A program made the position numbers and the translations under genes. DNA of 64,000 nt from Saprospirales bacterium (GTDB taxonomy: Bacteria; Bacteroidota; Bacteroidia; Chitinophagales; Saprospiraceae). The number at the start of each line of letters is the position of its first letter. The stretch's first letter is position 1. The notes below the pieces were generated by a model. It saw nothing but the letters and a program-made list of their open reading frames with translations. It ran no database searches and was not told where the DNA came from. Shown piece by piece: positions 6,330-60,560 of this stretch. The stretch spans positions 1 through 64,000 of the forward strand of contig REEI01000094.1 in NCBI GenBank assembly GCA_007695145.1. Reading direction: 5' to 3'.

Positions 6330-6376
6330 TAATTTAAAAGCAACCTATCTTCCAAATCGTTAAATTCATTCAAATT

Positions 6377-6706
6377 TTGTCAACTTTGGATCCTTTTTCC
6401 ACTGAAAATATTCAAGACTTTAAATCGCTAATCGCCCGGGACATTGAGTCAGGTGAGGTATCTAAATTGCTGGAGTATCTCACCCAGGTCATTGAGGAAA
6501 TGCTCAGGAGAGAACCGGAATTGTTGTTGAGCTCGCTTTACCGCATGGATGTCTCAGAAAATGCTGTTCACGAAGTGTTGGAAGGGAAAAGAGGGCAGGT
6601 CGAAAAGAGCCTGGCAGAATTGATCATTGAGAGACAGCGAGTGTCCCTCAAAACCAGAAAGATGTTTCCACAGCCAAAGATTGAGGACCCCGAGGCCTCC
6701 TTTTGA
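6377..6706 (+). CDS. Conserved-looking small protein, 109 residues
   Basis: The product is acidic and helical without signal peptide or membrane segments. I do not recognise a domain. The segment EYLTQVIEEMLRREPELLLSSLYRMDV suggests a small helical bundle. The frame begins with TTG at 6377; no ATG occurs in the first half, so the start is uncertain and TTG at 6386 is an alternative. Its position between the GH3 gene and recO, with gaps of about 45 bases on both sides, suggests it is part of that transcript. Confidence 0.6.
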   Translation: MSTLDPFSTENIQDFKSLIARDIESGEVSKLLEYLTQVIEEMLRREPELLLSSLYRMDVSENAVHEVLEGKRGQVEKSLAELIIERQRVSLKTRKMFPQPKIEDPEASF

Positions 6707-6748
6707 TAGGAGCATGCATCCGCAGCTTTCAAAAATACAATAAAAATT

Positions 6749-7471
6749 ATGTTGCTGAAAACGGAAGCAATAGTAATCAAAACTATAAAGTACCGCGAAA
6801 CAAGTGTTATCTCCAACTTCCTGACCCCTGGTAAAGGTATGATTTCGATTATTGCAGGAGGTGTAAGAAAGAGCAAATCCACTATGCACGCCAACCTCTT
6901 TCAACCGGCTTCCCTTGTGGACGCAGTCATCTACTACAAAGAAAATACTGAACTCCACAGACTCAAAGAAATTAGATCCTCTCACCCACTTATGAGCACC
7001 CACGAACAGTTGAAAAAAATAGCCATTGCTCAATTCATGGCTGAATTGGTAAAAAAATGCGTAAGGGAAACCACTCCGAACCCCGGACTATTTTCTTTTG
7101 TAAAAGACCATATTTTAAAACTTGAAAATGACCAAAAGCCAAACCCAAATACTCCTCTCTTATTCATTCTGGGACTAGCCCCAAAACTGGGCATTGCTCC
7201 GGAGTTTGACCGCAATGGAAGATTCCTCGATCTAAAAGAAGGAATTCTCACCAATTTCCAACCTGTCCACCCCCACTTTTTAGATGAAGAAAAAACTGCC
7301 CTTGTAAGGGTGCTTTTAAAGGGCAGCCCCGAAGACATTGTAAGCTTGTCAATAGACAATGAAATGCGGAGAACTTTATTCAACCGCTTGATGGATTATT
7401 ATATGATACATATAGACGGCATGAAGCCCCTTAAGAGTACAGAAATATTCAGAACCGTATTTTTGGTATAA
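6749..7471 (+). CDS. recO: DNA repair protein RecO
   Basis: RecO works with RecF and RecR to load RecA on gapped DNA and anneals complementary strands. The N-terminal OB-fold is recognisable from TEAIVIKTIKYRETSVISNF and GVRKSKS, followed by the helical C-terminal domain. Length is 240 residues, normal for the family. The zinc-binding cysteines of some RecO proteins are absent. It starts 42 bases after the small gene at 6377 and ends before a 277-base gap. Confidence 0.88.
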   Translation: MLLKTEAIVIKTIKYRETSVISNFLTPGKGMISIIAGGVRKSKSTMHANLFQPASLVDAVIYYKENTELHRLKEIRSSHPLMSTHEQLKKIAIAQFMAELVKKCVRETTPNPGLFSFVKDHILKLENDQKPNPNTPLLFILGLAPKLGIAPEFDRNGRFLDLKEGILTNFQPVHPHFLDEEKTALVRVLLKGSPEDIVSLSIDNEMRRTLFNRLMDYYMIHIDGMKPLKSTEIFRTVFLV

Positions 7472-14042: not shown

Positions 14043-14798
14043 TCACCCAATCTTCATAGACTTCAGTTGTTGTCCGGTTTTACCGAATCGACGTTCTCTT
14101 CCCTGGAAGTCTAAAATAGCTTCAAAAAAGTCTTGTTTGCGGAATTCCGGCCAAAATTTGGGTGAAAAAAACAGTTCGGCATAGGCGAGCTCCCAGAGCA
14201 GAAAGTTACTGATCCTCTGTTCTCCGGAAGTTCGAATCATAAGTTCCACATCAGGCATTTGGGCCGTGCTCAAGTGAGAGCGAAAAGAATGTTCATCTAT
14301 GCTTTCCGGATCTATTTTTCCACTGGCGGCTTCTCTTGCCAAATTCGCAGCAGCCTGTACCATATCCCATTTTGCGCTATAGTTCAATGCCAGTACCACT
14401 TTAAGACCAGTATTGTGCGCAGTTGCTGCTATTCCCTCCTTCAGGGCCTTTCTTGATTTTGAGGGAAGTTTTGATATGTCGCCAATCGACCTTAATTGAA
14501 CCTGTTTTTTCACCAGTTCATTCACCTCCTGTCTGATGGTCTGTACCAACAAAGTCATCAATGCGTTCACCTCAAAGGCTGGCCTCTTCCAGTTTTCAGT
14601 ACTAAATGCGTAGAGCGTGAGATATTCTACCCCTATTTCACCTGCAGCTTCAACAACTTCTCTCACCGATTGCACACCACTCTGATGTCCAAAAACTCTT
14701 GGTTTTCCCATCAAATTGGCCCATCGTCCATTGCCATCCATAATTACCGCTACATGTCCGGGAACTTTATTCCTGTCAATCCGCTCTTTCAGAATCAT
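14043..14798 (-). CDS. uppS: Isoprenyl transferase (undecaprenyl diphosphate synthase)
   Basis: The enzyme condenses isopentenyl diphosphate in cis onto farnesyl diphosphate to build the lipid carrier for cell-wall synthesis. It shows the catalytic HVAVIMDGNGRWA block with the magnesium-binding Asp, the GHQSG segment, FSTENWKRP, and the C-terminal RTSGEQRISNFLLWELAYAE signature. Length is 251 residues, standard for the family. It lies upstream of bamA on the same strand but 735 bases away, so co-transcription is doubtful. Confidence 0.93.
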   Translation of the reverse strand: MILKERIDRNKVPGHVAVIMDGNGRWANLMGKPRVFGHQSGVQSVREVVEAAGEIGVEYLTLYAFSTENWKRPAFEVNALMTLLVQTIRQEVNELVKKQVQLRSIGDISKLPSKSRKALKEGIAATAHNTGLKVVLALNYSAKWDMVQAAANLAREAASGKIDPESIDEHSFRSHLSTAQMPDVELMIRTSGEQRISNFLLWELAYAELFFSPKFWPEFRKQDFFEAILDFQGRERRFGKTGQQLKSMKIG

Positions 14799-15044
14799 TT
14801 TACTGAATATCTATTTTTTACCAAATTCAAGCCCGCAAAGGCAAGCCTTACAAGTACAACAAACGGTTCAATCCCCTTTTCTGACCTTTGCAATTCTAAA
14901 ACTTCCACCAAAAGTAAGCATTTATTCTCTAATCAAAAAAAACAGGTTCACAGTAATTGGGACCACCGGACATGAACTCACATTTTTCCGAAGACAATTT
15001 CCCATTAATTTTTAGTTTTTCAGATAAAAATCGGTTATGTATCC

Positions 15045-21848: not shown

Positions 21849-22450
21849 AAAATAAGGATTATTCTTATAGCGACCAAATTGCTGCCCAATAACGATAAAG
21901 ACATATCCTTTTGTTTGAAATTTCTGACCGACAACAATTCAATGGAGACTCCAAAAACCTGGTCGACCCAATTCCCGAGTTTGGGAACATTTTTCACAAT
22001 CAATGAATAAGGGGAAATTTATTACTAAAGTTTTTCGCGAGCTAACCAATATAAATTCAGTAGTTTATATAGCAATAAAATGCATGATTTAATCATTTTT
22101 TCATTGGTTTGTCCATGACTTATGCTCATTTTCCACTTCTCATCAATCAAATTCTTTTAGGCCGGAAAAGAAGGTAGAAGACTCCGGGCCGATACGCTAA
22201 TTTTGATGTAATCTGCTACAGAAATTTAATAGAAATATCCCTTAGTCTTGCTCTTAGGATTCGATAAACAGTCTCGTAAAGCAAACTATATCTGATTCAT
22301 TGAGAAATGCGAAACTTGAGTTTTTTAGAGATGCTTAGAGAAGTGAATGAATGGATTCAGGTAAAAATTTAATCGATGTAGCAGGCCTGGTGCTCCTTAA
22401 ATTTAGTATGCCATTTTATGTTTCCCTACCTGAATTGCACCGTTCGTGAT
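21849..22450. other. Intergenic region, no gene seen
   Basis: About 600 AT-rich bases separate the divergent SRPBCC gene and the kynurenine operon. I see no coding frame, repeat or hairpin of note until the operon promoter at 22451. Confidence 0.5.
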
Positions 22451-22482
22451 TTTGCAAAAGCCGTCACTTCTTCGTACCTTTA
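22451..22482 (+). promoter_or_regulatory. Promoter of the kynurenine operon
   Basis: TTTG at 22451..22454 and TACCTTTA at 22475..22482 are 20 bases apart, matching the Bacteroidota promoter arrangement with one mismatch in the -7 box. Transcription would start about 10 bases before the ATG at 22502. The boxes fall inside the upstream extension of the first frame, which argues for the shorter protein. Confidence 0.7.
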
Positions 22483-22501
22483 CCCCAAAGAAAACTTCAG
22501 A

Positions 22502-22915
22502 ATGAAAAATAGCAAACTGGTTGAGGGAAAAGCCAAGCCCAGGGGTAAATTTCCTCACATCAAAAGAGCAGGAGACTTCCTCTATGTGAGTGGCACAAGT
22601 TCCAGGAGGCCTGACAATACTTTTGTCGGTGCAGAGGTGGATGAAGTGGGGACTACAAAACTTGATATCCGCCAACAGACAAGAGCGGTACTCGAAAACA
22701 TTGAAGATATACTAAAATCTGAGGGAGCCGGACTCAGCGACATCATTGATATTACAACCTTTCTTGTGAATATGAATGATTTTGGAGGTTACAATGAAGT
22801 TTACGCGGATTTTTTTGACTACAGTGGCCCCACCCGAACTACGGTAGCAGTGCATCAATTGCCACACCCCCTCTTATTGATAGAAATTAAGGCCATTGCG
22901 TATAAGCCACTTTAA
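22502..22915 (+). CDS. amnD: 2-aminomuconate deaminase (RidA superfamily)
   Basis: The protein resembles 2-aminomuconate deaminase, which converts 2-aminomuconate to 4-oxalocrotonate after ACMS decarboxylation and semialdehyde oxidation in kynurenine catabolism. It shows [30 protein letters not shown] and the long C-terminal run from [17 protein letters not shown] to [14 protein letters not shown]. The length of 137 residues fits the family. The open frame begins at 22418, but the promoter at 22451..22482 and the family alignment point to ATG at 22502. It is the first gene of the operon; 12 bases separate it from the next. Confidence 0.85.
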
Positions 22916-22927
22916 ATCTCTCACCAA

Positions 22928-24181
22928 ATGAAACGGAATCTACTCATTCTTACTACCTGTATGTCTATAATTCTTTTACAGGCCTGCGGAAGCTCAAATG
23001 AGGAAGTAATTCAAACTTCCAGGCAATATACCGTTATTCTCTCTTTGGACGGCTTTAGGTGGGATTACGCAGACCACACCCCTACTCCACATTTGGACTA
23101 TATAGCCCGGAAGGGTGTAAAAGCCGAATCTTTGATCCCTGTTTTCCCCAGTGGCACTTTTGCGAATCACTACAGTATGGCAACAGGTCTGCATCCGGAT
23201 AACCATGGAATAGTCGCAAACCGATTCAGCTGCCCCATTTTGCAGAGGGATTACAACAAAGGAGATCGGTCAACAGTAAGAGAGGGTATGTTTTATAGTG
23301 GGGAGCCAATTTGGGTCACTGCCAACAAGCATGGCTTGCGCACAGCTGCCTTTTACTGGGTCGGGAGCGAAGCCGATGTCATGGGAATCAGACCAGATAT
23401 CTGGAAAAAATACTCCAATGATTTTCCCTACGGAGACCGGGTCGACTCTGTAGCCCACTGGTTGTCACTGCCCGAACCTGATCGACCCGATCTTATCATG
23501 TGGTATTATCACCAAATTGATAGTGATGGCCACAGATACGGCCCTTTGGCAGACAGCTTATTAATGACTGTCCGCATGAAAGATAGCCTGATCGGGGTTT
23601 TTCTCAATAAAATTGATGATTTACCCTATAGGGATCAAATTAATTTTATTGTGGTTTCGGACCATGGGATGACGGAAATAAACAGGGATGAAATCATATA
23701 TCTCGACTTATTGGTTGACACTTCTCTGATCGAATTAATTGATGGCGGAGGAGCAATAATGAACATTAAGGCCAGAAAGGGAAAAAAAGAAGAACTCTAC
23801 CACTCACTTAAAGCAATTGATAAGCTCTCAGTCTGGAAATCAGGAGAAGTGCCTGAGCGATTTCACTACGGCACACATCCCCGAACTCACGATATAGTTG
23901 TCCTGGCCGATCTTGGATATCTAATCGGCTGGAGTAGCAGGAACTACACCTTTATAGGAGCCCACAACTACGATAATTTTGAGCCCGATATGCATGGAAT
24001 TTTCTACGCTATGGGTCCTGCCTTTGAAAGAGGAGTGGTGCTGGAGTCCTTTCAAAATATTTCCATCTATCCACTCCTTTCCTACCTGTTGGGAATAGAG
24101 CCTGCAAGAAACGACGCAGAACTCTACCCCTTAGAGGCCGGATTGCTGCTAAAAAACAATAAAAAAACTGACAATGAGTGA
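22928..24181 (+). CDS. Lipoprotein nucleotide pyrophosphatase/phosphodiesterase (ENPP type)
   Basis: This is a type I phosphodiesterase/nucleotide pyrophosphatase of the alkaline phosphatase superfamily. A lipoprotein signal ends in LLQAC with Cys20. Metal ligands and nucleophile are in place: Asp41 in LSLDGFRWD, Thr77 in FPSGTFANHYSMATGLHPDNHG, QIDSDGHRYGP, VVSDHGM and a late His in the GAHNYDN/MHG region. ENPP enzymes cut phosphodiester or pyrophosphate bonds in nucleotides such as NAD or nucleoside triphosphates. It acts outside the cytoplasm. Its end overlaps tryptophan dioxygenase by 8 bases, so it is a coupled member of the kynurenine operon. Confidence 0.85.
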   Translation: MKRNLLILTTCMSIILLQACGSSNEEVIQTSRQYTVILSLDGFRWDYADHTPTPHLDYIARKGVKAESLIPVFPSGTFANHYSMATGLHPDNHGIVANRFSCPILQRDYNKGDRSTVREGMFYSGEPIWVTANKHGLRTAAFYWVGSEADVMGIRPDIWKKYSNDFPYGDRVDSVAHWLSLPEPDRPDLIMWYYHQIDSDGHRYGPLADSLLMTVRMKDSLIGVFLNKIDDLPYRDQINFIVVSDHGMTEINRDEIIYLDLLVDTSLIELIDGGGAIMNIKARKGKKEELYHSLKAIDKLSVWKSGEVPERFHYGTHPRTHDIVVLADLGYLIGWSSRNYTFIGAHNYDNFEPDMHGIFYAMGPAFERGVVLESFQNISIYPLLSYLLGIEPARNDAELYPLEAGLLLKNNKKTDNE

Positions 24182-25283
24182 AAAATATACCAGTATTCAC
24201 TACCACAACTACCTGCAATTAGACAAGATACTCTCCGCTCAGGACTTGAGGAGTGCAATGGACGGGGAAGCTGCCCATGATGAAATGCTATTCATTATCA
24301 TCCATCAAGTCTATGAGTTGTGGTTTAAAGAAATAGGTCACGACCTAGGATCAGTTACCGGGATGTTTGAATCAGATAATGTGGATGAAAAAAGTATCGG
24401 TCTGGCTGTGGCCAGACTTGACCGCGTAATTGAAATCCTGAAAGTGCTGATAGCTCAAATACGTGTTCTCGAAACCATGACCTCACTGGATTTCCTGGAT
24501 TTTCGAAATTATCTCTTTCCGGCTTCGGGATTCCAGTCTTTTCAATTTCGCATGGTTGAATTAATGTTGGGCTTAAAATCCGGTCAGCGCATTACCTACA
24601 ATCAGGCGCCCTATACGGATGCCTTTGAGGGCAGGCAACGACAAAGACTAAAAGAGTTGGAAAGCTCAAAATCCATGCTCGATTTATTGGAGGCCTGGCT
24701 AGAGCGAACGCCATTTCTCGAGTTTAAAAATTTTAACTTTTTAACTGCCTACAAGGAAGCGGTAAAAAATATGCTTAATGAGGAGTCAGAGGCCATCCGA
24801 TCCTCTCCCATTCTTAAAGAGGATGAAAAAAAAATGAGGTTAACTATGCTGGGTGACACGGACACCTATTTTGCCTCTGTATTGGATGAGACTCACCACA
24901 ATCAACTGATAGAAAAAGGCGAGCTTCGCCTTAGTTACAAGGCTACTATGGCAGCACTGTTGATAAACTTGTACAGGGATGAACCAATTCTTCAAATGCC
25001 CTATCTGTTTATCTCCAAGTTGCTGGAGATTGATGATCTGCTGACCACCTGGAGATTTAGGCACGCTCAGATGGTTATGCGAATGCTGGGCAGGAAAACT
25101 GGCACAGGTGGTTCATCCGGGCATAAATACCTTAGGGAAACAGCAGATAAACATAAAATCTTCAGTGATCTTCACAATATTTCCACTCTACTCATCCCCC
25201 GTTCCATGTTGCCAAAATTACCCAACGAGCTAAAAATGGAGTTGGGTTTTTATTTCACCGAGAAAAAGCAGAATGATGATTAA
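24174..25283 (+). CDS. kynA: Tryptophan 2,3-dioxygenase
   Basis: This haem enzyme opens the indole ring of tryptophan to N-formylkynurenine. The family signatures are YHNYLQLDKIL, the HDEMLFIIIHQVYELWFKEI block, SGFQSFQFRMVELMLG, and the late FRHAQMVMRMLGRKTGTGG with the following SSGHKYL. At 369 residues it is longer than proteobacterial enzymes, owing to a middle insertion (about residues 150-230). It overlaps both neighbours: the phosphodiesterase by 8 bases and ACMSD by 11. No kynurenine formamidase gene is nearby. Confidence 0.95.
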   Translation: MSEKYTSIHYHNYLQLDKILSAQDLRSAMDGEAAHDEMLFIIIHQVYELWFKEIGHDLGSVTGMFESDNVDEKSIGLAVARLDRVIEILKVLIAQIRVLETMTSLDFLDFRNYLFPASGFQSFQFRMVELMLGLKSGQRITYNQAPYTDAFEGRQRQRLKELESSKSMLDLLEAWLERTPFLEFKNFNFLTAYKEAVKNMLNEESEAIRSSPILKEDEKKMRLTMLGDTDTYFASVLDETHHNQLIEKGELRLSYKATMAALLINLYRDEPILQMPYLFISKLLEIDDLLTTWRFRHAQMVMRMLGRKTGTGGSSGHKYLRETADKHKIFSDLHNISTLLIPRSMLPKLPNELKMELGFYFTEKKQNDD

Positions 25284-26316
25284 CGTTGATGGTAAAGACC
25301 TCTTGAAAATTGATATACATACCCACATTATGCCGGAGCATATGCCGCGATGGGCAGAAAAGTTTGGCTATGGGGGGTTTATTCATTTAGATCACCACAA
25401 GCCCTGTTGTGCCCGAATGATGCAGGACGACAAATTCTTCAGGGAGGTAATGGACAATTGCTGGGATCCGGAAAGCCGGATGAAAGAATGCAAAGAACAC
25501 CATGTAGATGTTCAGGTACTATCTACCATTCCCGTTTTGTTCAGTTACTGGGCAGAGCCTCAGGATGCCCTGGATGTATCGCGTTTCCTCAATGATCATA
25601 TTGCAGGTATTGTAGATCGATACCCCAAAAGATTTGTTGGCTTGGGAACAGTCCCCATGCAGGCACCTGAACTTGCCATTAAAGAAATGGAGCGCTGCGT
25701 CAAGGATCTCGGTCTTGCAGGCATAGAAATCGGCTCCCATATCAATGACTGGAACCTCTCAGACCCTGCTTTATTTCCCTTTTTCCAGGCGGCTGAAGAG
25801 TTTGGAGCTTCCATTTTTGTTCATCCCTGGGATATGATGGGCAAAGACAAGATGAGCCGATATTGGCTTCCGTGGTTGGTAGGAATGCCAGCCGAAACTT
25901 CACTAGCAATTTGCTCTATGATATTCGGAGGGGTTTTTGAACGATTGCCAAACTTGAGGGTGGCATTTGCCCACGGAGGTGGATCATTCCCCGCCACTAT
26001 TGGCCGTATTGAGCACGGGTTCAATGTAAGGCCGGATCTATGCGCCATCGACAACAATGTCAATCCCAAAGAATACCTCGGTAAATTTTACCTGGATTCC
26101 CTTGTTCACGATCCCAGAATGCTGGATTACATAGTCGATTTGGTTGGAAAAGATAAGGTTGCTCTGGGCACAGACTACCCTTTCCCACTGGGAGAACTCG
26201 AGCCCGGAAAATTGATTGAAGGCATGCCCTGGGACACAGAAACCAAAGAAAAACTTCTCAGCGGAAATGCCCTAAATTGGCTAGGCCTTTCAAAACAAAA
26301 TTTCCTCAATCCCTAA
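25273..26316 (+). CDS. acmsd: 2-amino-3-carboxymuconate-6-semialdehyde decarboxylase
   Basis: ACMSD is a zinc amidohydrolase that decarboxylates ACMS and so diverts it from quinolinate and NAD synthesis. Metal and catalytic residues are visible: DIHTHIMPEHMP (HxH), FVHPWDMMG, VAFAHGGGSFP and LGTDYPFPLGE. The substrate-binding segment MKECKEHHVDVQVLSTIPVLFSYWA is also typical. Length is 347 residues. It overlaps kynA, and the kynU start follows 17 bases after its stop. In this operon it indicates degradation of tryptophan for carbon and nitrogen. Confidence 0.93.
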   Translation: MMINVDGKDLLKIDIHTHIMPEHMPRWAEKFGYGGFIHLDHHKPCCARMMQDDKFFREVMDNCWDPESRMKECKEHHVDVQVLSTIPVLFSYWAEPQDALDVSRFLNDHIAGIVDRYPKRFVGLGTVPMQAPELAIKEMERCVKDLGLAGIEIGSHINDWNLSDPALFPFFQAAEEFGASIFVHPWDMMGKDKMSRYWLPWLVGMPAETSLAICSMIFGGVFERLPNLRVAFAHGGGSFPATIGRIEHGFNVRPDLCAIDNNVNPKEYLGKFYLDSLVHDPRMLDYIVDLVGKDKVALGTDYPFPLGELEPGKLIEGMPWDTETKEKLLSGNALNWLGLSKQNFLNP

Positions 26317-26333
26317 TCTTAGACAAACTCTTT

Positions 26334-27605
26334 ATGGAGAGAAAAATTCCCGAAGAAATATTGGAAATGGACCGAAGAGATCCTCTTGGCCATTTTCGAG
26401 ATAAATTTAATAGGCCGGCCACCTTCAATGGAGAGCCATGCATATACCTCTGCGGAAATTCGCTTGGCTTGCAGCCATCACGGGCAGTTGATTTTGTTGA
26501 ATTGGAAATGAAGAAGTGGGCTGAAATGGGGGTAGAAGGTCATGTAAAAGGAAAATATCCCTGGATGCCGTATCACGAGTTTTTGACTGATAAAATGGCT
26601 GAAATCGTAGGGGGAAAACCCGGGGAAGTCGTGGTAATGAACTCCCTAACAGTAAATCTGCATCTCTTGATGGTCTCCTTTTACAGACCTACCAGAAAAA
26701 AATACAAAATCCTTATTGAATTCCACCCCTTCCCCTCGGACAGGTATGCAGTGGAATCTCAGGCAAAGTTCCACGGATATGATCCACAGGACGCCATTAT
26801 TGAGCTGCAGCCGGATAGCGGTTCTGCTTATGTAAGCATGGAATCCATTGAGCAGAAATTTGAACAGCATGGCGATGAAATCGCTTTGGTGCTCATTGGG
26901 GGAGTAAATTATTACAGCGGGCAGTATTACGACATACCCAGAATCAGCAAACTGGCTCACAAATATGGGGCAGTAGCCGGCTTTGACCTCGCACATGCAG
27001 CTGGAAATGTTCCCTTGCAGTTGAATGAATGGGGGGTGGATTTTGCCGCCTGGTGCTCTTACAAATATCTCAACTCCGGACCAGGTGCGCTTTCAGGAGT
27101 TTTTGTCCACGAAAGACACGGCAAGGACTTCGATATGCCTCGATTTGCAGGCTGGTGGGGACACGATAAACAAACCCGGTTTAAAATGGGTTCTGAGTTT
27201 GTCCCAATGGAAGGTGCTGAGGGGTGGCAATTGAGCAATCCTCCAATTCTACCGATGGCCTGTATGCAAGCTTCGCTTCAACTTTTTCACGAAGCAGGGA
27301 TGAACAGTCTGAGAAAAAAAAGTGAGCAATTGGTCAGTCTTTGCGAAAATCTTATCAACTCAATCCCCGGTGAAAGAATTGAACTCATCACCCCGGAAAA
27401 TCCCGGCGAAAGGGGGTGCCAATTGTCCCTCAGGGTGATCATCTCAGATCGCAAACTTTTTGAAACCATATCATCGAAAGGGGTAATAGCAGACTGGCGA
27501 GAACCTGATGTGATCAGAATAGCGCCGGTACCTCTTTATAACACCTATTCAGAGATTTATATATTCTCTGAAATACTAAAAGAAAGTATCCATGAGCAAT
27601 CATAA
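26334..27605 (+). CDS. kynU: Kynureninase
   Basis: Kynureninase is a PLP enzyme that releases alanine from kynurenine or 3-hydroxykynurenine, yielding anthranilate or 3-hydroxyanthranilate. It shows the N-terminal YLCGNSLGLQP, FDLAHAAGNVPLQLNEWGVD, the PLP lysine in CSYKYLNSGPG, and the WGH and SNPPILPMA substrate-binding segments. I placed the start at ATG 26334 rather than the in-frame ATG at 26277, which lies inside ACMSD and adds residues not seen in the family. Length is 423 residues. Its end overlaps kmo by 14 bases. Confidence 0.94.
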   Translation: MERKIPEEILEMDRRDPLGHFRDKFNRPATFNGEPCIYLCGNSLGLQPSRAVDFVELEMKKWAEMGVEGHVKGKYPWMPYHEFLTDKMAEIVGGKPGEVVVMNSLTVNLHLLMVSFYRPTRKKYKILIEFHPFPSDRYAVESQAKFHGYDPQDAIIELQPDSGSAYVSMESIEQKFEQHGDEIALVLIGGVNYYSGQYYDIPRISKLAHKYGAVAGFDLAHAAGNVPLQLNEWGVDFAAWCSYKYLNSGPGALSGVFVHERHGKDFDMPRFAGWWGHDKQTRFKMGSEFVPMEGAEGWQLSNPPILPMACMQASLQLFHEAGMNSLRKKSEQLVSLCENLINSIPGERIELITPENPGERGCQLSLRVIISDRKLFETISSKGVIADWREPDVIRIAPVPLYNTYSEIYIFSEILKESIHEQS

Positions 27606-28935
27606 AATAGTCGTAATCGGTGCCGGACTTTGCGGTTCCTTGTTGGCCATTCGTCTGAAGCAAAGAGGTTTTGATGTGGAACTCTTTGAGAAGAGGCCGG
27701 ATATGCGCAAAGCCAAAATAAGTGCAGGGCGCTCAATCAATCTCGCACTATCCAACCGCGGCTTGAAGGCCCTGAAAATGATTGGTCTGGAAGAGAAAGC
27801 AAGGAAGATAACGATACCCATGAGGGGTCGGATGCTCCACGACAGAGAGGGGGAACTATTTTTTTCACCCTATAGCGGAAGAGAAGGAGATTACATCAAC
27901 TCCATTTCAAGAGGACAGCTGAATTCCCTACTATATGATGAGGCTGAAAAGCTCGGCATTAATATTAATTTTAATATGGGTTGTGTTGACTCCGACCCGG
28001 ATTCCGGTTGGTTAACATTCGAGGATGAGAATGGAAAGATGACTAAAATTGTGGCCGAAGCCGTTTTTGGTGCAGATGGGGCCGGAAGTGCCATCCGCAA
28101 GGCAGCTATGGAAAGGAGCAATCTCATCAGGTTTAATTTTAGTCAGGACTTTCTTACACACGGATATAAGGAATTATCGATACCCCCTGGACCCAACCAA
28201 AGCTTCAGAATCGAAAAAAATGCACTCCACATCTGGCCCAGGAAGACATTTATGATGATAGGACTCCCCAATCCCGATGCTACTTTTACAATGACCTTGT
28301 TTTTGCCCTTTGAGGGAAAGGATGGCTTCGATGCAATCAGGTCAGATGAGGACGTATTCAACTATTTCAAAAAATGGTTTCCGGATGCCATTCCGCATAT
28401 GCCAAATTTGATCGAAGAATACCACGATAATCCAACCTCCAGTCTTGGCACTATTCGCTGTTTCCCCTGGCAAACGGGCAAAAGGACGCTGCTGATAGGT
28501 GACGCGGCCCATGCTATTGTCCCTTTTTATGGTCAGGGCATGAATTGTGCATTTGAAGATGTAGTGGTCCTCGATAAAATAATGGACCAAACCGGCTCCG
28601 ATTGGGAGCGCACATTTAGTCAATTTCAGAGGGTGAGAAAGCCGGATGCAGATGCGATTGCAGATCTTGCAATAGACAATTTCCTGGAAATGCGGGATCG
28701 GGTGGCTGATCCGGTGTTTATGCAGAAGCGCAAATTAGAAATGGAATTGGAGAAAAACTTTCCCGAATACTATTCCAAATACTCCATGGTTACTTTCCTC
28801 GATGAAATGAGGTATTCCGAGGCATTGAAAAAAGGGAGAAAACAAGATGAATTCCTTTTAGAACTCTGCCGGCGAGAACCCGACATTCAAAAGTTGAACT
28901 TTAGCGAATTGCTAAATGAGCTTGGTCGATTGTGA
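27592..28935 (+). CDS. kmo: Kynurenine 3-monooxygenase
   Basis: Kmo hydroxylates kynurenine using FAD and NADPH. The N-terminal dinucleotide motif is VVIGAGLCGSLLAIRLKQRG, followed by the GRSINLALSNRGLKAL segment typical of Kmo. The second FAD motif reads LLIGDAAHAIVPFYGQGMN. It is 447 residues long and lacks the C-terminal membrane anchor of mitochondrial enzymes. It is the last gene of the operon; 370 bases without a gene follow. The product feeds kynU, giving 3-hydroxyanthranilate. Confidence 0.94.
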   Translation: MSNHKIVVIGAGLCGSLLAIRLKQRGFDVELFEKRPDMRKAKISAGRSINLALSNRGLKALKMIGLEEKARKITIPMRGRMLHDREGELFFSPYSGREGDYINSISRGQLNSLLYDEAEKLGININFNMGCVDSDPDSGWLTFEDENGKMTKIVAEAVFGADGAGSAIRKAAMERSNLIRFNFSQDFLTHGYKELSIPPGPNQSFRIEKNALHIWPRKTFMMIGLPNPDATFTMTLFLPFEGKDGFDAIRSDEDVFNYFKKWFPDAIPHMPNLIEEYHDNPTSSLGTIRCFPWQTGKRTLLIGDAAHAIVPFYGQGMNCAFEDVVVLDKIMDQTGSDWERTFSQFQRVRKPDADAIADLAIDNFLEMRDRVADPVFMQKRKLEMELEKNFPEYYSKYSMVTFLDEMRYSEALKKGRKQDEFLLELCRREPDIQKLNFSELLNELGRL

Positions 28936-29307
28936 GATGATTCCCGTAGAAGGTATTCTGGCAAATAGAACAATCAATTCCTGCTGACCTAATTACATTC
29001 CTACCAGGTTAAATTAGAGCTTAGTTCAATTCCATCTTTATTCAGGAAATGCTGATAAAAAATGCACTTTACAGAAAAAAATACCTGAGAAAAAATTTGA
29101 CAAAATTATGTTGGTTTCAGAAAATGATGTATTATTGAAGGATGCTATTGGTCCAAAAACATTGAGCCGATGACCGGGATTGCCAGTGTTTTACAAGGAA
29201 GATGAAAATATCCCGGGTTTGTTTTAAGTTGAGAAAAGCTAATCCGGAATTGGAGAGCCGATCTCTTGATTAAGCAATGACTTAATTATTCACAAAAACC
29301 AGTAATC
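28936..29307. other. Intergenic region, no gene seen
   Basis: No coding frame is seen in these 372 bases after kmo. I could not identify an intrinsic terminator for the kynurenine operon or a consensus promoter for the next gene. Confidence 0.45.
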
Positions 29308-30330: not shown

Positions 30331-31911
30331 ATGGCAAAAAAGAAAGGTAACGGAACAGAGGAGCCCTTAGAAAAGCAACTCTGGAAATCGGCCGATAAGC
30401 TAAGGAAAAACATAGATGCTGCGGAATACAAACACGTTGTGCTCGGGCTGATATTCTTAAAATACATCTCGGATGCGTTTGAGGAACTCTACGACAAACT
30501 TAAAGCGGGAGAAGGCGAATATGCAGGAGCTGATCCGGAAGACAAAGACGAGTACAAAGCCGAAAATGTATTCTTTGTGCCGGAGAAAGCCCGTTGGTCT
30601 TATTTACTCTCACAAGCCAAACAACCGACCATTGGAAAGTCTGTTGATGAAGCGATGGACTTCATTGAAAAGGAAAACGTTTCCTTGAAAGGCGTTTTGC
30701 CCAAAGTATATGCCCGACAAAATCTTGACCCAACCAGTTTAGGCGAACTCATAGACATGATTGGAAACATTGCCTTGGGTGATGCCAAAGCTAGAAGTGC
30801 AGATATTCTCGGACATGTGTTCGAATATTTCTTGGGCGAATTTGCTTTGGCTGAAGGTAAAAAGGGCGGACAGTTCTACACGCCAAGAAGCGTTGTTGAA
30901 CTTTTGGTAGAAATGCTGGAACCATACAAAGGCCGTGTCTTTGACCCTTGCTGTGGCTCTGGTGGTATGTTTGTCCAATCCGAGGAGTTTGTAACCAGCC
31001 ACCAAGGAAAAATCAATGACATTTCCATTTACGGACAGGAAAGTAACCAAACCACCTGGCGACTGGCAAAAATGAATTTGGCCATTAGAGGCATTGACAG
31101 CTCTCAGGTAAAGTGGAACAACGAAGGCTCGTTTTTGAATGATGCCCATAAAGACCTGAAAGCCGATTACATCATTGCCAACCCACCGTTTAACGTGAGC
31201 GATTGGAGCGGTGATTTACTGCGTACCGATGGCCGCTGGAAATACGGCACACCACCCACCGGAAATGCCAACTACGCTTGGATTCAACATTTCATGTATC
31301 ACCTGGCACCTAACGGACAAGCAGGTTTTGTCTTGGCAAAAGGCGCTTTGACGTCTAAAAGCGGCGGTGAAGGCGACATCAGAAAAGAACTAGTGGAAGC
31401 CGATTTGATTGATTGTATTGTCAACCTGCCGGCCAAGTTATTTTTAAATACCCAAATTCCTGCTTCGCTGTGGTTTATGAGCCGTAACCGCAGCAATGGC
31501 AAGTTCCGAAACCGAACAGGCGAAATTCTCTTTATTGATGCCCGCAACCTGGGACATTTAATAAACCGAAGGACCAAAGTGCTCTCTGAGGAAGATATCC
31601 AAACCATTACCAATACCTACCACAACTGGCGCAACAAATTCCCCTCCGATGGAGGGGTGCCCGAAGGGCGGGGTGGTTACGAAGACATCAAAGGTTTCTG
31701 CGCATCCGTAACCAAAGTACGGGTAGCCGAACTGGACTATGTACTCACTCCCGGACGCTATGTAGGATTGGCCGAAGAAGAAGATGACTTTGATTTTGCC
31801 GAACGCTTTAGAAGTTTGAAAGCGGAGTTTGAAGCGCAATTGCAGGAAGAAGCGGAGCTTAATGAGCGAATCCAAGAGAACCTTGCTAAAATCAAACTTC
31901 CCAATGCGTAG
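30331..31911 (+). CDS. hsdM: Type I restriction-modification system, methyltransferase subunit HsdM
   Basis: HsdM supplies N6-adenine methylation and forms the core complex with HsdS. The N-terminal helical domain (residues 10-150) begins [17 protein letters not shown]. The SAM motif [11 protein letters not shown] is at residues 204-214 and the catalytic NPPF at 284-287. The C-terminal region contains [11 protein letters not shown]. Between [10 protein letters not shown] and YEDIKGFC, a loop of about 13 residues ([11 protein letters not shown]) is encoded by a REP-like palindrome in frame. Length is 526 residues. The next gene overlaps its stop by 8 bases. Confidence 0.95.
31639..31678 (+). 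repeat. REP-like two-hairpin unit inside hsdM
   Basis: The unit has a first stem CCCCTCC / GGAGGGG, a second stem GCCC / GGGC around GAA, and the tail GGGGTGGTTA. The start TTCCCCTCC and the tail GGGGTGGT match the units in hsdR at 37973, 38021 and, inverted, 38428. It is read through in frame, adding a Gly-rich loop to HsdM. This is directly visible in sequence. Confidence 0.85.
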
Positions 31912-32770
31912 CACAAACGAACTTATTTTATATCAATCGGATGAGCTGGCTGAGCATATTGAAGTAAGGCTCGAAGATGAAACCATTTGGCTTACGCAAA
32001 ACCAGATTGTAGACCTTTTCGCAAGCAGTAAAGCCAATATTAGTGAGCACATCAAACATATTTTTGATTCAGGTGAGCTTGTGGAAAATTCAACTGTTCG
32101 GAAATTCCGAACAGTTCGCTTGGAGGGAGACCGAGAGGTTAGTAGGCAATTACGCCATTATAGTCTGGACGTTATACTTTCAGTGGGGTACAGGGTAAAC
32201 TCAGGGCGGGGAACGCAATTTCGTATTTGGGCAAATCAAGTGCTCAAAGACCATCTTCTCAAAGGATACTCCATTGCTAAACGTATAGACAGGATAGAAG
32301 ATAATGTTCATGGCCTAATCGGACGAATGGAAGAAATAGAATTGCAGATAAACACCAACCTTACACCAAAACAAGGAATCTTCTTCGATGGCCAAATCTT
32401 TGACGCCTATGTCTTTGTCGCTGATCTCGTTAAAAAAGCCAAAAGCAGCATCGTACTGATCGACAACTACGTGGAAGAATCGGTGCTAACCTTGTTGAGC
32501 AAACGCGAAAAGAACGTGGCCGCCACCATTTACACCAAAGCCGTCAGCAAGCAGTTCAAACTCGACCTAAAAAAACACAACAGCCAGTATCCGGAAATAA
32601 AGGTTGTGGAGTTTAAAGATGCCCACGACCGCTTTTTGATTTTGGATAAAAAGGAACTGTACCACTTTGGCGCTTCTCTGAAAGATTTGGGGAAGAAGTG
32701 GTTTGCTTTTTCGAGGATGGATACTATGACAAAAGCTGTCTTAAACCAATTAAGTAAAGTCCAGTCCTAA
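31904..32770 (+). CDS. RhuM-family protein with C-terminal HDRF domain
   Basis: The N-terminal half (residues 1-130) carries the RhuM signature: [35 protein letters not shown], followed by [16 protein letters not shown] and [13 protein letters not shown]. RhuM-like proteins often accompany type I restriction operons; their role is unknown. The C-terminal part (about 165-288) reads [21 protein letters not shown] and [25 protein letters not shown], a pattern reminiscent of phospholipase-D-like folds in regulators. ATG at 31904 overlaps hsdM; a longer start at 31862 is possible. Its stop overlaps the next ATG by 1 base. Confidence 0.8.
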
Positions 32771-34302
32771 TGAAAGCCCTCTTAGACACAAATATCATTA
32801 TTCACAGAGAAGCCGGACGGGTGGCCAATCAGGATATTGGTATTCTGTTTAAGTGGCTCGATAAGGTAAAATATCAGAAGTGCATTCATCCGGTGACCAT
32901 TCAGGAAATCGAAAAAAATCCCAATACCGGCACGGTCGATACCTTTAAAATCAAGATGGATAGCTATGAGCAGTTGCTTACAACGGCTCAAATGACGGAT
33001 GAAGTAAATGCTGTTTCGGATCAATTTGACCAAAACGAAAATGACCGGAACGATACCATTTTGCTAAATGAGCTATTTGTAGGCAGAGTGGATTTATTGA
33101 TTTCAGAAGACAAGAAAATCCATTCCAAAGCAGAGGCGTTAGGAATTTCAGAACAGGTATTTACTATAAATACATTTCTCGAAAAGGTCTTTGCTGAATT
33201 CCCTGAACTTGTCAAGTACCAAGTATTAGGTGTTCAGCAAAAGTTATTTGGTGAATTGAGCATAAACGATCCATTTTTTGACACCTTGAAAGAAGATTAC
33301 CCCGGTTTTGAAAAATGGTATCATGGAAAGGCAAATAAAAAGGCCTACGTCACCATCAATAATGAAAATGGTTTATTACTTTCCTTTCTTTACATCAAAA
33401 CAGAGGATAAAGACGAAGCGTATCCGGACATAAATCCTGCTTTTAAACCCAAAAAGAGACTGAAAGTGGGCACCTTCAAAGTCATCAGCAATGGTGTGCG
33501 ATTGGGGGAGCGATTCATGAAAATTATTTTCGACAATGCGCTTGCACGAAAAGTGGATGAAATTTACGTAACCATCTTTGAACAGCGGGACGAGCAGCAG
33601 CGGTTGATTACCTTATTGGAAGAGTGGGGATTTTATAAGCACGGCACTAAGGGAGAGGACGGAGAATTGGTGTATGTCCGCGACTTTACTCCACAAGCAA
33701 ATACGGAAAATCCCAAACTGACCTTTCCATACCTTAGTGCCGGGCAAAATGTTTTTCTGATCCCCATATATCCCGATTACCACACGGAACTTTTGCCCGA
33801 TTCTTACTTAAAAACGGAATCTCCGCAAAACTTCATTGAGCACGAGCCCCACCGGAACGCCTTGAGCAAGGTTTACATCTGCCGCTCCATAGAAAGAGGT
33901 ATCAAAAAAGGCGACATCATTGTGTTTTACCGGACAAAGGAAAGAGGTAAAAGCGCTTATTACAGCAGTGTCATTACAACTATCGCCATTTGTGAGGAAG
34001 TGATAGAAGACATCCGGGATGAAAGCGACTTTATCGCCAAGTGCCGTAAAAGAAGTGTTTTTAGTAGTGAGGGGTTAAAAGAATTTTGGAACTGGAATCC
34101 CCGGTTCCGACCGTTTATTATCAATTTTCTCTACGTCTGGTCATTTGGTTTAGGTAACCGGATAAACAGGGCAAGACTTTTAGAACTGGGTATTTTATCC
34201 GGTGAGGAAAACGAGATAAGGGGATTGAAACAAATAACACACGAACAATTTAAAACGATTTTGAATGAAACAGGAACAAATGAAAGTCTTATTGTCGATT
34301 AA
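32770..34302 (+). CDS. PIN nuclease - GNAT - PUA-like fusion protein
   Basis: Three parts are visible in the 510 residues. Residues 1-135 form a PIN domain with acidic residues in LLDTNIIIH, TIQEIEKN, NDTILLNEL and LISEDKKIHSKA, so the nuclease centre looks complete. Residues about 150-325 resemble a GNAT acetyltransferase: KVGTFKVISNGVRLGERFMKII, YVTIFEQ and the LLEEWGF block. Residues 335-440 look like a PUA/EVE-type domain (HRNALSKVYICRS, GDIIVFYRTKE). It is wedged between the RhuM-like gene and the ASCH gene with overlaps on both sides. A role in nucleic-acid conflict or as a toxin is inference. Confidence 0.75.
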   Translation: MKALLDTNIIIHREAGRVANQDIGILFKWLDKVKYQKCIHPVTIQEIEKNPNTGTVDTFKIKMDSYEQLLTTAQMTDEVNAVSDQFDQNENDRNDTILLNELFVGRVDLLISEDKKIHSKAEALGISEQVFTINTFLEKVFAEFPELVKYQVLGVQQKLFGELSINDPFFDTLKEDYPGFEKWYHGKANKKAYVTINNENGLLLSFLYIKTEDKDEAYPDINPAFKPKKRLKVGTFKVISNGVRLGERFMKIIFDNALARKVDEIYVTIFEQRDEQQRLITLLEEWGFYKHGTKGEDGELVYVRDFTPQANTENPKLTFPYLSAGQNVFLIPIYPDYHTELLPDSYLKTESPQNFIEHEPHRNALSKVYICRSIERGIKKGDIIVFYRTKERGKSAYYSSVITTIAICEEVIEDIRDESDFIAKCRKRSVFSSEGLKEFWNWNPRFRPFIINFLYVWSFGLGNRINRARLLELGILSGEENEIRGLKQITHEQFKTILNETGTNESLIVD

Positions 34303-57305: not shown

Positions 57306-58694
57306 ATGAAGATTAGATACATTGACTTTATTCAGCAAACTTTTGACTTCCCACAGGACGAGTTTAATGTCAAAAACGGGCAGTTATTTTTCAATGACAT
57401 CTCAATGATGGATTTGGTCGAGAAATACGGTACACCATTAAAGTTTTTTTACCTTCCCAACATCAGTCGAAATATTCAAAGGGCAAAAAAGTGGTTCAAC
57501 AAGGCGATCAGGGACAATAATTACAATGGCGAGTATCACTATTGCTATTGTACGAAGAGTTCTCACTTCTCTTTTGTACTGAAAAAAGCGCTCGCGAACG
57601 ACATCAATATTGAAACCTCCTATGCAACTGATCTAGAAATTGTTCAAAAACTCACTAAAAGTGGAGACTTCAACAAGGAGAGGAAAATTATTTGCAATGG
57701 ATTTAAAACCGATCAATATCTCGCCAAAATAGGAGAACTCCACAGGGATGGATTTCAGGTTTTGCCTATAATTGACAGTCCATTAGAACTCTCAAAACTT
57801 CGAGACGAAATTGCCGGGCCCATTGACATTGGGATTAGAATTGCCTCGGAGGAAGAACCTAAGTTTGAGTTTTACACTTCGCGCCTGGGGATAGGATATA
57901 AGGATATACTGCCGCTGTATAAGAGCAAAATACAGAAAGATGAGCGCCTCAATCTGAAGATGCTCCATTTTTTCATCAATACCGGCATAAGGGACAATGC
58001 ATATTACTGGAATGAGTTTTTCAAATGCCTCAAATTGTATGTAGAGTTGAAGAAAATTTCTCCCGGACTTGATTCATTCAATATTGGTGGTGGATTCCCG
58101 ATCAAAAACTCTCTTGCATTCAACTACGATTACTCTTACATGATAGACGAAATCGTTTTTCAGATCAAAAAGTTTTGCAAGGACGAAAGAGTGGAAGAGC
58201 CCGATATCTACACTGAATTTGGTTCTTATACAGTAGGTGAAAGTGGAGGTGCAGTATTTAAAATACTCAATCAGAAACAGCAAAACGATCGGGAAAAATG
58301 GAATATGATCGACAGTTCCTTCATGACTAATTTGCCGGATTCATGGGCACTCTCAAAAAGGTTTATTTTGTTGCCATTGAACAAATGGGAAGACTCGTAC
58401 GAAAGAGTATTCCTGGGGGGGCTCACTTGTGATAGCGATGATTACTACAACAGCGAACAACACCTCAATGCGATCTATCTGCCTCAATACAGGCCATCGA
58501 AGCCCTTGTATATAGGCTTTTTCAACACAGGTGCTTATCAGGAGTCCCTTGGGGGGTACGGTGGCCTCCAACACTGTTTGATACCCAACCCGAAAATACT
58601 ACTGATCGACAAAGACAAAAACGGCGACCTGGTCTACGACCTTTTTGCAGAGCAACAAAGTCCGGAGTCCATGCTCAAACTTCTCGGCTATTAA
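57306..58694 (+). CDS. speA: Arginine decarboxylase, fold-III type
   Basis: The enzyme converts arginine to agmatine. The PLP lysine is in CYCTKSSHFSF, the Gly-rich loop is FNIGGGFPI, GESGG follows, and the catalytic Cys-Asp pair is in GLTCDSDD. At 462 residues it is much shorter than enterobacterial SpeA and matches the form common in Bacteroidota. It is followed 22 bases later by agmatinase, and then by a deoxyhypusine synthase homologue, forming a polyamine cluster. Confidence 0.88.
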   Translation: MKIRYIDFIQQTFDFPQDEFNVKNGQLFFNDISMMDLVEKYGTPLKFFYLPNISRNIQRAKKWFNKAIRDNNYNGEYHYCYCTKSSHFSFVLKKALANDINIETSYATDLEIVQKLTKSGDFNKERKIICNGFKTDQYLAKIGELHRDGFQVLPIIDSPLELSKLRDEIAGPIDIGIRIASEEEPKFEFYTSRLGIGYKDILPLYKSKIQKDERLNLKMLHFFINTGIRDNAYYWNEFFKCLKLYVELKKISPGLDSFNIGGGFPIKNSLAFNYDYSYMIDEIVFQIKKFCKDERVEEPDIYTEFGSYTVGESGGAVFKILNQKQQNDREKWNMIDSSFMTNLPDSWALSKRFILLPLNKWEDSYERVFLGGLTCDSDDYYNSEQHLNAIYLPQYRPSKPLYIGFFNTGAYQESLGGYGGLQHCLIPNPKILLIDKDKNGDLVYDLFAEQQSPESMLKLLGY

Positions 58695-58716
58695 ACCATA
58701 AAATACAATCATACAA

Positions 58717-59568
58717 ATGAGTAAAACTTTTGCAGGAATTCCTCAGCAATATCATGATTACGATAAAGCTAGGGTGGTTCTTTTCCCGGTAAATTTTGAT
58801 GGGACAAGCACCTGGGGAAAAGGTGCCGACAAAGGTCCTGATGCGATGCTCAACGCAGCTGAAAATATGGAGCTCTACGATATTGAGACCGGGACCGAAC
58901 CTTACAAAATTGGAGTTCATCTCGCGGATGCAGCCCCGAAATTTGACAAACCGGCCCAGATGGTTGAGTTTGTGCACAAGGAGGTGTTATCTCACCTCAA
59001 AAGGGACAAGTTTCCAACCATAATTGGAGGAGAACACAGCATTTCTATTCCGGTTATCAGGGCATTTCGAGAGTACTACGGCAGCTTAACTGTTCTTCAA
59101 ATTGACGCCCATGCAGATTTGCGTCATTCGTATGAGGGCACTCCCTACAATCACGCATGTGCTATGGCCGAAGCAGTCAACACAACTAATTTAATTCAAG
59201 TGGGTATCAGATCCATGGACACAAGTGAAGTTCAACCCATGAAAAAGGAAAATGTCTTTTTTGCCCACAAAATCAGGCAAGACGAGAACTGGATACAGAA
59301 AGTGGTCGACAAGTGCGAAGGAAATGTTTATATTACCATAGACCTTGACGCATTTGACCCTTCAATCATGCCCTCTACAGGCACACCCGAGCCCGGAGGG
59401 CTTTACTGGTATGAAACTCTGGATTTATTAAAACGCGTTTGCAGCCACAAAAAAGTGGTGGGATTTGACATTGTTGAGTTGTGCCCCAACGAAAACAATC
59501 CTGCGCCGGATTTCATGGCAGCAAAACTTTATTACAAATTGCTGGCCTATTTGCAGAAAAATTTGTAA
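58717..59568 (+). CDS. speB: Agmatinase
   Basis: Agmatinase cleaves agmatine to putrescine and urea using two manganese ions. The metal ligands are in GGEHSISIP, the DAHADLRHSYEG block and ITIDLDAFDPS; GTPEPGGL follows. Length is 283 residues, normal for the ureohydrolase family. Its position right after arginine decarboxylase favours agmatinase over arginase or formiminoglutamase. Confidence 0.9.
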   Translation: MSKTFAGIPQQYHDYDKARVVLFPVNFDGTSTWGKGADKGPDAMLNAAENMELYDIETGTEPYKIGVHLADAAPKFDKPAQMVEFVHKEVLSHLKRDKFPTIIGGEHSISIPVIRAFREYYGSLTVLQIDAHADLRHSYEGTPYNHACAMAEAVNTTNLIQVGIRSMDTSEVQPMKKENVFFAHKIRQDENWIQKVVDKCEGNVYITIDLDAFDPSIMPSTGTPEPGGLYWYETLDLLKRVCSHKKVVGFDIVELCPNENNPAPDFMAAKLYYKLLAYLQKNL

Positions 59569-59588
59569 GTTGGCAAAAAGATATAAAC

Positions 59589-60560
59589 ATGAATTACAAC
59601 ATTTCTTCCTTCATTGAAAAGTACTACCTACATTTTAACGCTGCAGCCCTTGTCGATGCAGCCAAAGGATACTCCCACCAATTGGAGGATGGTGGAAAAA
59701 TGATGGTAACCCTCGCCGGCGCAATGAGCACAGCGGAGTTGGGGAAAATTCTCGCAGAAATGATACGACAGGACAAGGTGCACATCATCTCCTGTACCGG
59801 AGCAAATCTCGAAGAGGATGTTATGAATCTTGTGGCGCACGATCACTACAAAAGAATTCCAAATTACCGCGAACTCACTGCAACTCAGGAAAGGGAGTTA
59901 CTGGACCAGGGACTCAATCGGGTCACTGACACCTGCATACCGGAGGAGGAAGCATTCAGGCGAATACAGGGAAAAATATTTAAAAGATGGAAAGAAGCAG
60001 AAGATTCCGGAAAGCGATTTTTCCCACATGAATATATGTACCAGATGCTAAAAAATGGCGATTTGGAAGAATTTTACCAAATACCTCCAGAGGATAGTTG
60101 GATGGTAGCGGCCGCCGAAAAGAACATCCCGATTTTAGTGCCCGGGTGGGAGGATAGTACCCTGGGAAATATCTTTGCCTCTTACTGCATAAAGGGTGAT
60201 CTAAATCCATCCACAGTGAAGTCCGGTATCGAATACATGACTTTCCTGGCCGATTGGTACCTCAAAAACTCCAGTGGAAAAGGTGTGGGCTTCTTCCAAA
60301 TAGGGGGAGGAATAGCCGGTGACTTCCCTATTTGTGTGGTACCCATGTTGTATCAGGATCTTGAATATGAAGACATCCCCTTTTGGGCCTATTTCTGTCA
60401 AATATCCGACAGTACCACCAGCTTTGGCTCATATTCAGGTGCTGTTCCCAATGAGAAGATAACCTGGGGCAAATTGGACGAAACCACACCAAAGTTCATT
60501 ATTGAATCGGATGCAACCATTGTCGCCCCACTCATTTTCGCCCATGTTTTAAATTGGTAA
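59589..60560 (+). CDS. Deoxyhypusine synthase homologue
   Basis: The family transfers an aminobutyl group from spermidine. Eukaryotic and archaeal members modify a lysine of eIF5A; bacteria lack eIF5A, and bacterial homologues are thought to make a polyamine such as homospermidine. Motifs seen are GGKMMVTLAGAMSTAELG, ISCTGANLEEDV and ITWGKLDE with a Lys at the position of the catalytic residue. The frame is open from 59481, inside speB, but ATG at 59589 starts the family alignment. Length is 323 residues. It lies 20 bases after agmatinase. Confidence 0.88.
   Translation: MNYNISSFIEKYYLHFNAAALVDAAKGYSHQLEDGGKMMVTLAGAMSTAELGKILAEMIRQDKVHIISCTGANLEEDVMNLVAHDHYKRIPNYRELTATQERELLDQGLNRVTDTCIPEEEAFRRIQGKIFKRWKEAEDSGKRFFPHEYMYQMLKNGDLEEFYQIPPEDSWMVAAAEKNIPILVPGWEDSTLGNIFASYCIKGDLNPSTVKSGIEYMTFLADWYLKNSSGKGVGFFQIGGGIAGDFPICVVPMLYQDLEYEDIPFWAYFCQISDSTTSFGSYSGAVPNEKITWGKLDETTPKFIIESDATIVAPLIFAHVLNW

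Follow-up and report, generated by a model that had tools for sequence, protein, structure and literature searches.

The ENPP gene and its operon

Why should a gene for an outer hydrolase unrelated to the operon substrate lie inside a tryptophan-degradation operon? Among catabolic genes such an enzyme looks out of place. We analysed the case found on Saprospiraceae bacterium contig REEI01000094.1, in a stretch of 64,000 nucleotides referred to here as the window, where six genes follow each other on the forward strand in the order AmnD-ENPP-TDO-ACMSD-KynU-KMO. The first one (AmnD, 22502-22915) encodes a RidA-family (PF01042) 2-aminomuconate deaminase-like protein. Its start was placed at an internal ATG common to relatives, the reading frame opening at 22418. 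The protein matches the solved 2-aminomuconate deaminase 6izh with an E-value of 8e-62, the next best match being at 5e-24, and its score lies below the NCBIfam Rid cut-off (76.7 vs 106.25 bits). The ENPP/NPP-family gene (22928-24181) comes next, followed by the genes of tryptophan 2,3-dioxygenase (TDO, 24174-25283; PF03301, E 2e-107; solved TDOs, E 6e-97), 2-amino-3-carboxymuconate-6-semialdehyde decarboxylase (ACMSD, 25273-26316; 2wm1, E 3.4e-150), kynureninase (KynU, 26334-27605; TIGR01814 of NCBIfam, 439.8 bits for a cut-off of 246.4) and kynurenine 3-monooxygenase (KMO, 27592-28935; 6lkd, E 4.4e-91). The gaps along the six genes are +12, -8, -11, +17 and -14 nt.

A sequence-only reading of this DNA had described an ENPP with a lipoprotein-like N-terminus inside a tryptophan-degradation operon, placed between two kynurenine pathway genes and overlapping kynA by 8 bases. 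This description is borne out by the domain and structure matches given here and below, by the AmnD-like and TDO neighbours, and by the TDO (kynA) start at 24174, which gives an overlap of 8 bases.

As judged from these matches, the operon is predicted to cover a large part of the degradative route that passes via ACMS. The gene of 3-hydroxyanthranilate dioxygenase (3-HAO) is present in the same genome on a different contig. For kynurenine formamidase, the enzyme of the second step, only candidates were obtained, i.e. two cyclase-family matches in the genome, the stronger of which resembles an uncharacterised cyclase and isatin hydrolases more than it does the solved kynurenine formamidases.

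Separately, the solved relatives of three of the proteins (24174-28935) fall into a much closer and a more distant set, with 328 vs 117 bits for TDO, 504 vs 238 for ACMSD and 309 vs 216 for KMO; we take the closer set to be mammalian and the distant one to be bacterial or fungal. Elsewhere in the window, the translation of 30331-31911 resembles by eye a type I restriction-modification methylase subunit (HsdM-like), and 32770-34302, one of the genes that follow it, gave no Pfam match. Within 57306-60560, a member of the deoxyhypusine synthase family (PF01916, E 5.2e-42) is encoded near a PLP decarboxylase-like gene (57306-58694, PF02784); it is probably a homospermidine-type polyamine enzyme.

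Assignment of the ENPP protein

The ENPP reading frame starts with ATG and encodes 417 residues. The predicted protein matches PF01663 of Pfam over the whole profile (1-342 of 342) with an E-value of 8.2e-83 and 279.3 bits for a cut-off of 23, which places it in the ENPP/NPP family of two-zinc phosphodiesterases, in the alkaline phosphatase superfamily. The only NCBIfam match is a weak one to PhnA (19 bits vs a cut-off of 407.55). Among solved structures, the Xanthomonas NPP (2gsn, E 5.3e-66) comes nearest by sequence, followed by ENPP5, ENPP1, ENPP7 and ENPP3, while a profile search gave venom PDE, NPP5 and NPP3 as top matches. The structure predicted from 11 homologues has a mean pLDDT of 81.6 and retrieved the same enzymes in a fold search (7n1s, E 1.5e-38); the nucleophile loop, residues 75-79, is poorly modelled (pLDDT below 50).

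The N-terminus, MKRNLLILTTCMSIILLQAC, has by eye a lipobox-like end. In the same way, a signal and a lipobox-like motif were recognised by eye in 5/5 of the linked ENPPs discussed below, two of which (G154 and G327) have a longer N-terminus and perhaps a wrong start. Across the own genome PF01663 gave one strong match, the ENPP itself (280 bits), and a second, weak match of 29 bits on a different contig. The GC and GC3 contents of the gene resemble those of its operon neighbours, and a recent acquisition of ENPP was rejected since its base composition is not odd in comparison with theirs.

Active site and substrate

The zinc-site and nucleophile residues of NPP3, as listed in PMC6052110, are D168, T206, D326, H330, D373, H374 and H483. 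They correspond to D41, T77, D198, H202, D245, H246 and H346 of the bacterial ENPP, all seven being invariant across the 11-sequence alignment, and the protein should therefore be an active phosphodiesterase. PMC6052110 also gives F207 and Y290 as base-stacking residues, together with N227; their counterparts are F78, Y162 and N98, so that the base pocket has its F and Y, and the N that binds phosphate is there too. Two homologues (L093 and L094) carry F in place of the base-pocket Y. G76 and A345 stand where NPP3 has its leaving-group contacts, K205 and T482, and the specificity may therefore differ from that of mammalian NPP1/3. Among the active-site residues compared with NPP3, none that would select NAD was found. 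The residues fit a nucleotide phosphodiesterase and pick out no single substrate.

A non-nucleotide activity, e.g. that of a glycerophosphocholine or sphingolipid-type diesterase like ENPP6/ENPP7, was considered in this context. The fold search was strong for ENPP6 (E 1.8e-36) and ENPP7 (E 2.9e-34), and the loss of the NPP3 leaving-group contacts points the same way. Nevertheless, F78/Y162 and N98 are as in NPP3, and XacNPP comes out on top both by single sequence and by fold, while the profile search is led by venom PDE, NPP5 and NPP3. We regard such an activity as very unlikely, the least probable of the readings weighed here.

Conservation of the gene order within the genus

Eight species of the genus are included in the 398-genome family sample. 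The deaminase-ENPP-TDO-ACMSD-KynU-KMO order was found in 5/5 members in which it could be read (the window, G154, G253, G327 and G374), the KMO of G374 running off its contig. Three loci from Saprospiraceae or Saprospirales MAGs (L090, L091 and L092), whose coordinates agree with those of G327, G253 and G374, were counted once. In two further members, G407 and G434, the contig starts 47 and 28 bases before TDO, and these remnants resemble by eye the ENPP C-termini of G374 and G154; that they are ENPP ends is suggestive only. TDO was not found in the eighth genome, G453, which is 67% complete. The distance between ENPP and TDO ranges from -8 to +15 nt across the five linked loci. ENPP is therefore tightly and co-directionally linked to the kynurenine operon in 5/5 readable genus members, and a strain-specific accident was rejected because of this recurrence.

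Does this order reflect a function? ENPP could instead have entered the operon by accident and have persisted as its expression there is tolerated, with no metabolic tie to tryptophan, an explanation that we judge unlikely, although it carries more weight than the other alternatives. ENPP is the least conserved operon protein, with 59-68% identity among the five species vs 68-95% for the other five proteins, as would suit a passenger. However, the order is kept in all five readable members despite saturated synonymous sites in ENPP (10/10 pairs), and the active site is intact. The dN/dS ratio was unusable because most pairs show saturation at synonymous positions. The flanks bear on the same question. 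Upstream of the operon, PabB, PabC and one further protein are encoded in the window, and an S1-like ribosomal protein in G154 (assigned partly by eye), where the operon is intact despite flanks unlike those of the window, which speaks against a chance passenger. This argument is weakened by what other members share with the window upstream of the operon: G374 has PabB, PabC and a relative of the further flank gene, and G253 likewise has a relative of that gene. The gene order has probably been kept by selection; a neutral history is possible, since a conserved order across one genus can persist without functional need.

Two observations concern individual loci of the genus. KynU is 95% identical, with a dS of 0.50, between L090 (4342-5607) and L091 (11378-12643), whereas the other operon genes have dS values of at least 1.3 or saturated; this looks like a local recombination or transfer of KynU. 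Additionally, two similar small genes (GxxExxY-like by eye) flank the L091 operon on both sides (14624-15025 and 6749-7126), one of them adjoining a short repeated-peptide reading frame (6373-6786).

Distribution outside the genus and origin of the linkage

In the order sample of 149 genomes, an ENPP homologue (E <= 1e-30) was found in 6 and TDO in 124, and the own genome is the only one of the 149 with both on a common contig. In the family sample, ENPP homologues (E <= 1e-75) are present in 40/398 genomes and TDO (E <= 1e-120) in 169/398. Seventeen genomes have both, i.e. the five of the genus, in which they are linked, and 12 others, in which they lie on separate contigs of draft assemblies, so that closeness across a contig break is conceivable. 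The two samples overlap and consist of draft genomes. Linkage beyond the genus was thus not found in the 149- and 398-genome samples, and a family-wide linkage was rejected because no contig outside the genus carries both genes there. Conservation in relatives, on which the sequence-only reading turned, holds for the readable members of the genus and ends with them in the samples searched.

The TDO loci of relatives were examined for the state without ENPP. The best 30 TDO loci of the family, own included, comprise 5 with ENPP upstream, 2 that are cut off, 6 with the deaminase directly before TDO and no ENPP, and 17 with neither; for these 17 the flank covered is at most 1.5 kb, and less than 0.7 kb in L133, L137 and L145. 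Among 29 further TDO loci of the order sample, the window's own excluded, a deaminase-family gene stands just before TDO in 6 and ENPP in none. Four of these six deaminases are 64-76% identical, with ACMSD behind TDO, and two (L029 and L032) are 39-40% identical. In total, 12 loci of relatives have a deaminase-family gene directly before TDO without ENPP.

In a TDO tree of 38 rows, rooted for drawing only, the seven rows of the genus form one clade with a support of 100/100. The nearest rows, of unsettled branching, are L129 and L137, with neither gene, and the pair L132 and L142, with deaminase-TDO. All ten deaminase-TDO rows used in the tree fall in the same half as the genus, the support of this half being weak (81/82). 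The simplest account, and a probable one, is a single insertion of ENPP into a pre-existing operon in the ancestor of the genus. That one insertion event accounts for every occurrence agrees well with a chance passenger too.

More distant ENPPs were surveyed at 44 loci (sets of 18, 9 and 17, one gene being in two sets), L085, L087, L088 and L089 having been scanned for operon genes. No TDO, ACMSD, KynU or KMO match was found in the flanks covered, some of which are shorter than 2 kb a side; in L117 a weak deaminase-family match (30%) lies on the strand opposite to ENPP. By eye, the neighbours at 34/44 loci, a survey that left out L098 and 9/17 of the loci L105-L121, are varied and recur only among close kin, such as M16 peptidases in L096, L097, L099 and L101 and a HisS-like gene in L051, L106 and L110. 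Functional hints from these neighbours were rejected, the recurring genes being confined to kin. The lack of common neighbours beyond close kin and of any NAD- or Trp-specific feature found in ENPP is what a hitch-hiking gene would lead one to expect.

The NAD question

Could the enzyme serve NAD supply? In this explanation, extracellular NAD would be split into NMN and AMP, NMN dephosphorylated, and nicotinamide riboside taken up by PnuC, balancing the draw of ACMSD on ACMS away from quinolinate and NAD. The degradative branch encoded by the operon (ACMSD, AmnD-like) and the PnuC of the own genome would suit it, and NPPs are able to cleave NAD, according to the kinetics of NPP3 in PMC6052110 and, for NPP1, to PMC8038981. 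NAD is thus a possible ENPP substrate.

Nevertheless, the own genome also carries quinolinate synthase NadA, NadC and 3-HAO, and NAD can therefore probably still be made from aspartate. The loss of de novo NAD synthesis was rejected on this ground, and the idea of the sequence-only reading that NAD scavenging might make this synthesis unnecessary is not supported. Its other suggestion, a nutrient response common to both, is possible. PnuC was found in 10/10 genomes tested, five of which carry the linked ENPP while the other five lack a close one. NadA was found in seven of a partly different set of ten genomes, three with ENPP (G000, G154 and G117) and four without (G086, G123, G139 and G143), and not in G201 and G219, with an unlinked ENPP, nor in G093, without ENPP. 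Neither PnuC nor NadA tracks with ENPP, and the co-occurrence evidence does not favour NAD as the substrate. Moreover, deaminase-TDO-ACMSD occurs without ENPP in G093, G123, G139 and G143, an ENPP at E <= 1e-75 is missing from 152 of the 169 TDO-bearing genomes of the family, and no ENPP residue favours NAD over other nucleotides. We therefore regard an NAD-linked role as improbable. Even more doubtful is its extended form, a paired module in which tryptophan would be committed to full degradation, ACMSD and the 2-aminomuconate deaminase taking away the precursor of quinolinate, while the outer enzyme would harvest pyridine or flavin dinucleotides, cofactor supply shifting from synthesis to salvage each time tryptophan is burnt. 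If the substrate were NAD, the ACMS branch point would be tied to cofactor salvage.

Promoter and transcription

A candidate operon promoter was located at 22452-22482 of the forward strand (TTG - 20 nt - TACCTTTA), with the -7-like element lying 27 nt ahead of the start codon (ATG) of the deaminase gene. It resembles what we take to be the Bacteroidota -33/-7 promoter; the pattern with a 19-nt spacer gave no match in the window, where the spacer is 20. TAYCTTTA, a pattern picked after looking at the loci, is present within 200 nt upstream of the deaminase gene in 5/5 genus loci and in 1.8% of random 200-nt stretches from the same loci, and the forward strand of 22300-29000 has no copy besides the promoter one. 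In the four other genus loci TATCTTTA starts 24 to 107 nt before the deaminase gene, and a TTG precedes TAYCTTTA by 18-23 nt in 4/5 loci, G327 being without. In ten relatives without ENPP, the pattern stands before the deaminase gene in 2/10 and a looser form in 3/10 (chance per stretch 1.4% and 3.8%), and is therefore not general to such operons.

Between 22000 and 29500, a generic scan gave 8 terminator-like sites vs 7.8 in shuffled sequences, with none on the forward strand at the ENPP-TDO junction. Sigma-70-like promoter patterns are somewhat commoner there than in shuffles (21 vs 13.1, sd 3.5). Two of them lie on the forward strand inside ENPP, at 23270 and 23482, and an internal transcription start is therefore possible.

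Proposed function and meaning

Taken together, we tentatively favour, as the most likely function, a broad outer nucleotide scavenging placed under shared control with tryptophan degradation. ENPP would be an ordinary 5'-nucleotide phosphodiesterase/pyrophosphatase with two zinc ions, a lipoprotein attached to the outer face of a membrane. Its gene would have been inserted, in the genus ancestor, between the 2-aminomuconate deaminase gene and the TDO of an existing tryptophan-degradation operon. Today a single promoter ahead of the deaminase gene probably drives ENPP together with that operon. The enzyme would act outside the cell and perform no kynurenine-pathway step. From its family, we infer that it may hydrolyse nucleoside polyphosphates, dinucleotides or nucleotide sugars released by cell lysis into nucleoside monophosphates, products that could supply phosphate and nucleosides. 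A promoter common to ENPP and tryptophan degradation would then exist because both serve feeding on dead biomass.

The observation is modest and well-bounded. It hints at dead biomass as a nutrient condition under which Saprospiraceae may break down amino acids at the same time as nucleotides, and the genus-wide, long-kept insertion offers a clean before/after comparison.

Comparison with known systems

The closest known enzyme is XacNPP (2gsn/2rh6/7mw8), which is 33% identical across the domain when aligned by fold and has the same two-zinc residues, the threonine nucleophile and the base-pocket F and Y. It differs in the residue before the nucleophile, L in XacNPP and G in ENPP, and the ENPP gene here lies within a tryptophan-degradation operon. 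The catalytic domains of mammalian ENPP1, ENPP3 and ENPP5 have the same fold and catalytic residues, and some of these enzymes cleave NAD, as stated in PMC6052110 and PMC8038981. In contrast to them, the bacterial protein is, at 417 residues, too short for somatomedin or nuclease-like domains. NPP3 moreover has K205 and T482 at the places of G76 and A345, and NPP5 has a tyrosine after the nucleophile where the bacterial ENPP has F78.

With bacterial kynurenine degradation operons the locus shares the deaminase-family gene just before TDO, seen at the 12 loci of relatives. The G093 operon has a deaminase-TDO-ACMSD-KynU series, but KMO was not found next to it. The difference is ENPP between the deaminase gene and TDO, which was seen in the own genus only; the titles and abstract openings of the open-licence papers listed gave no description of this linkage. 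The enzyme family and the pathway are both already known, and what is new is most likely their genus-specific combination.
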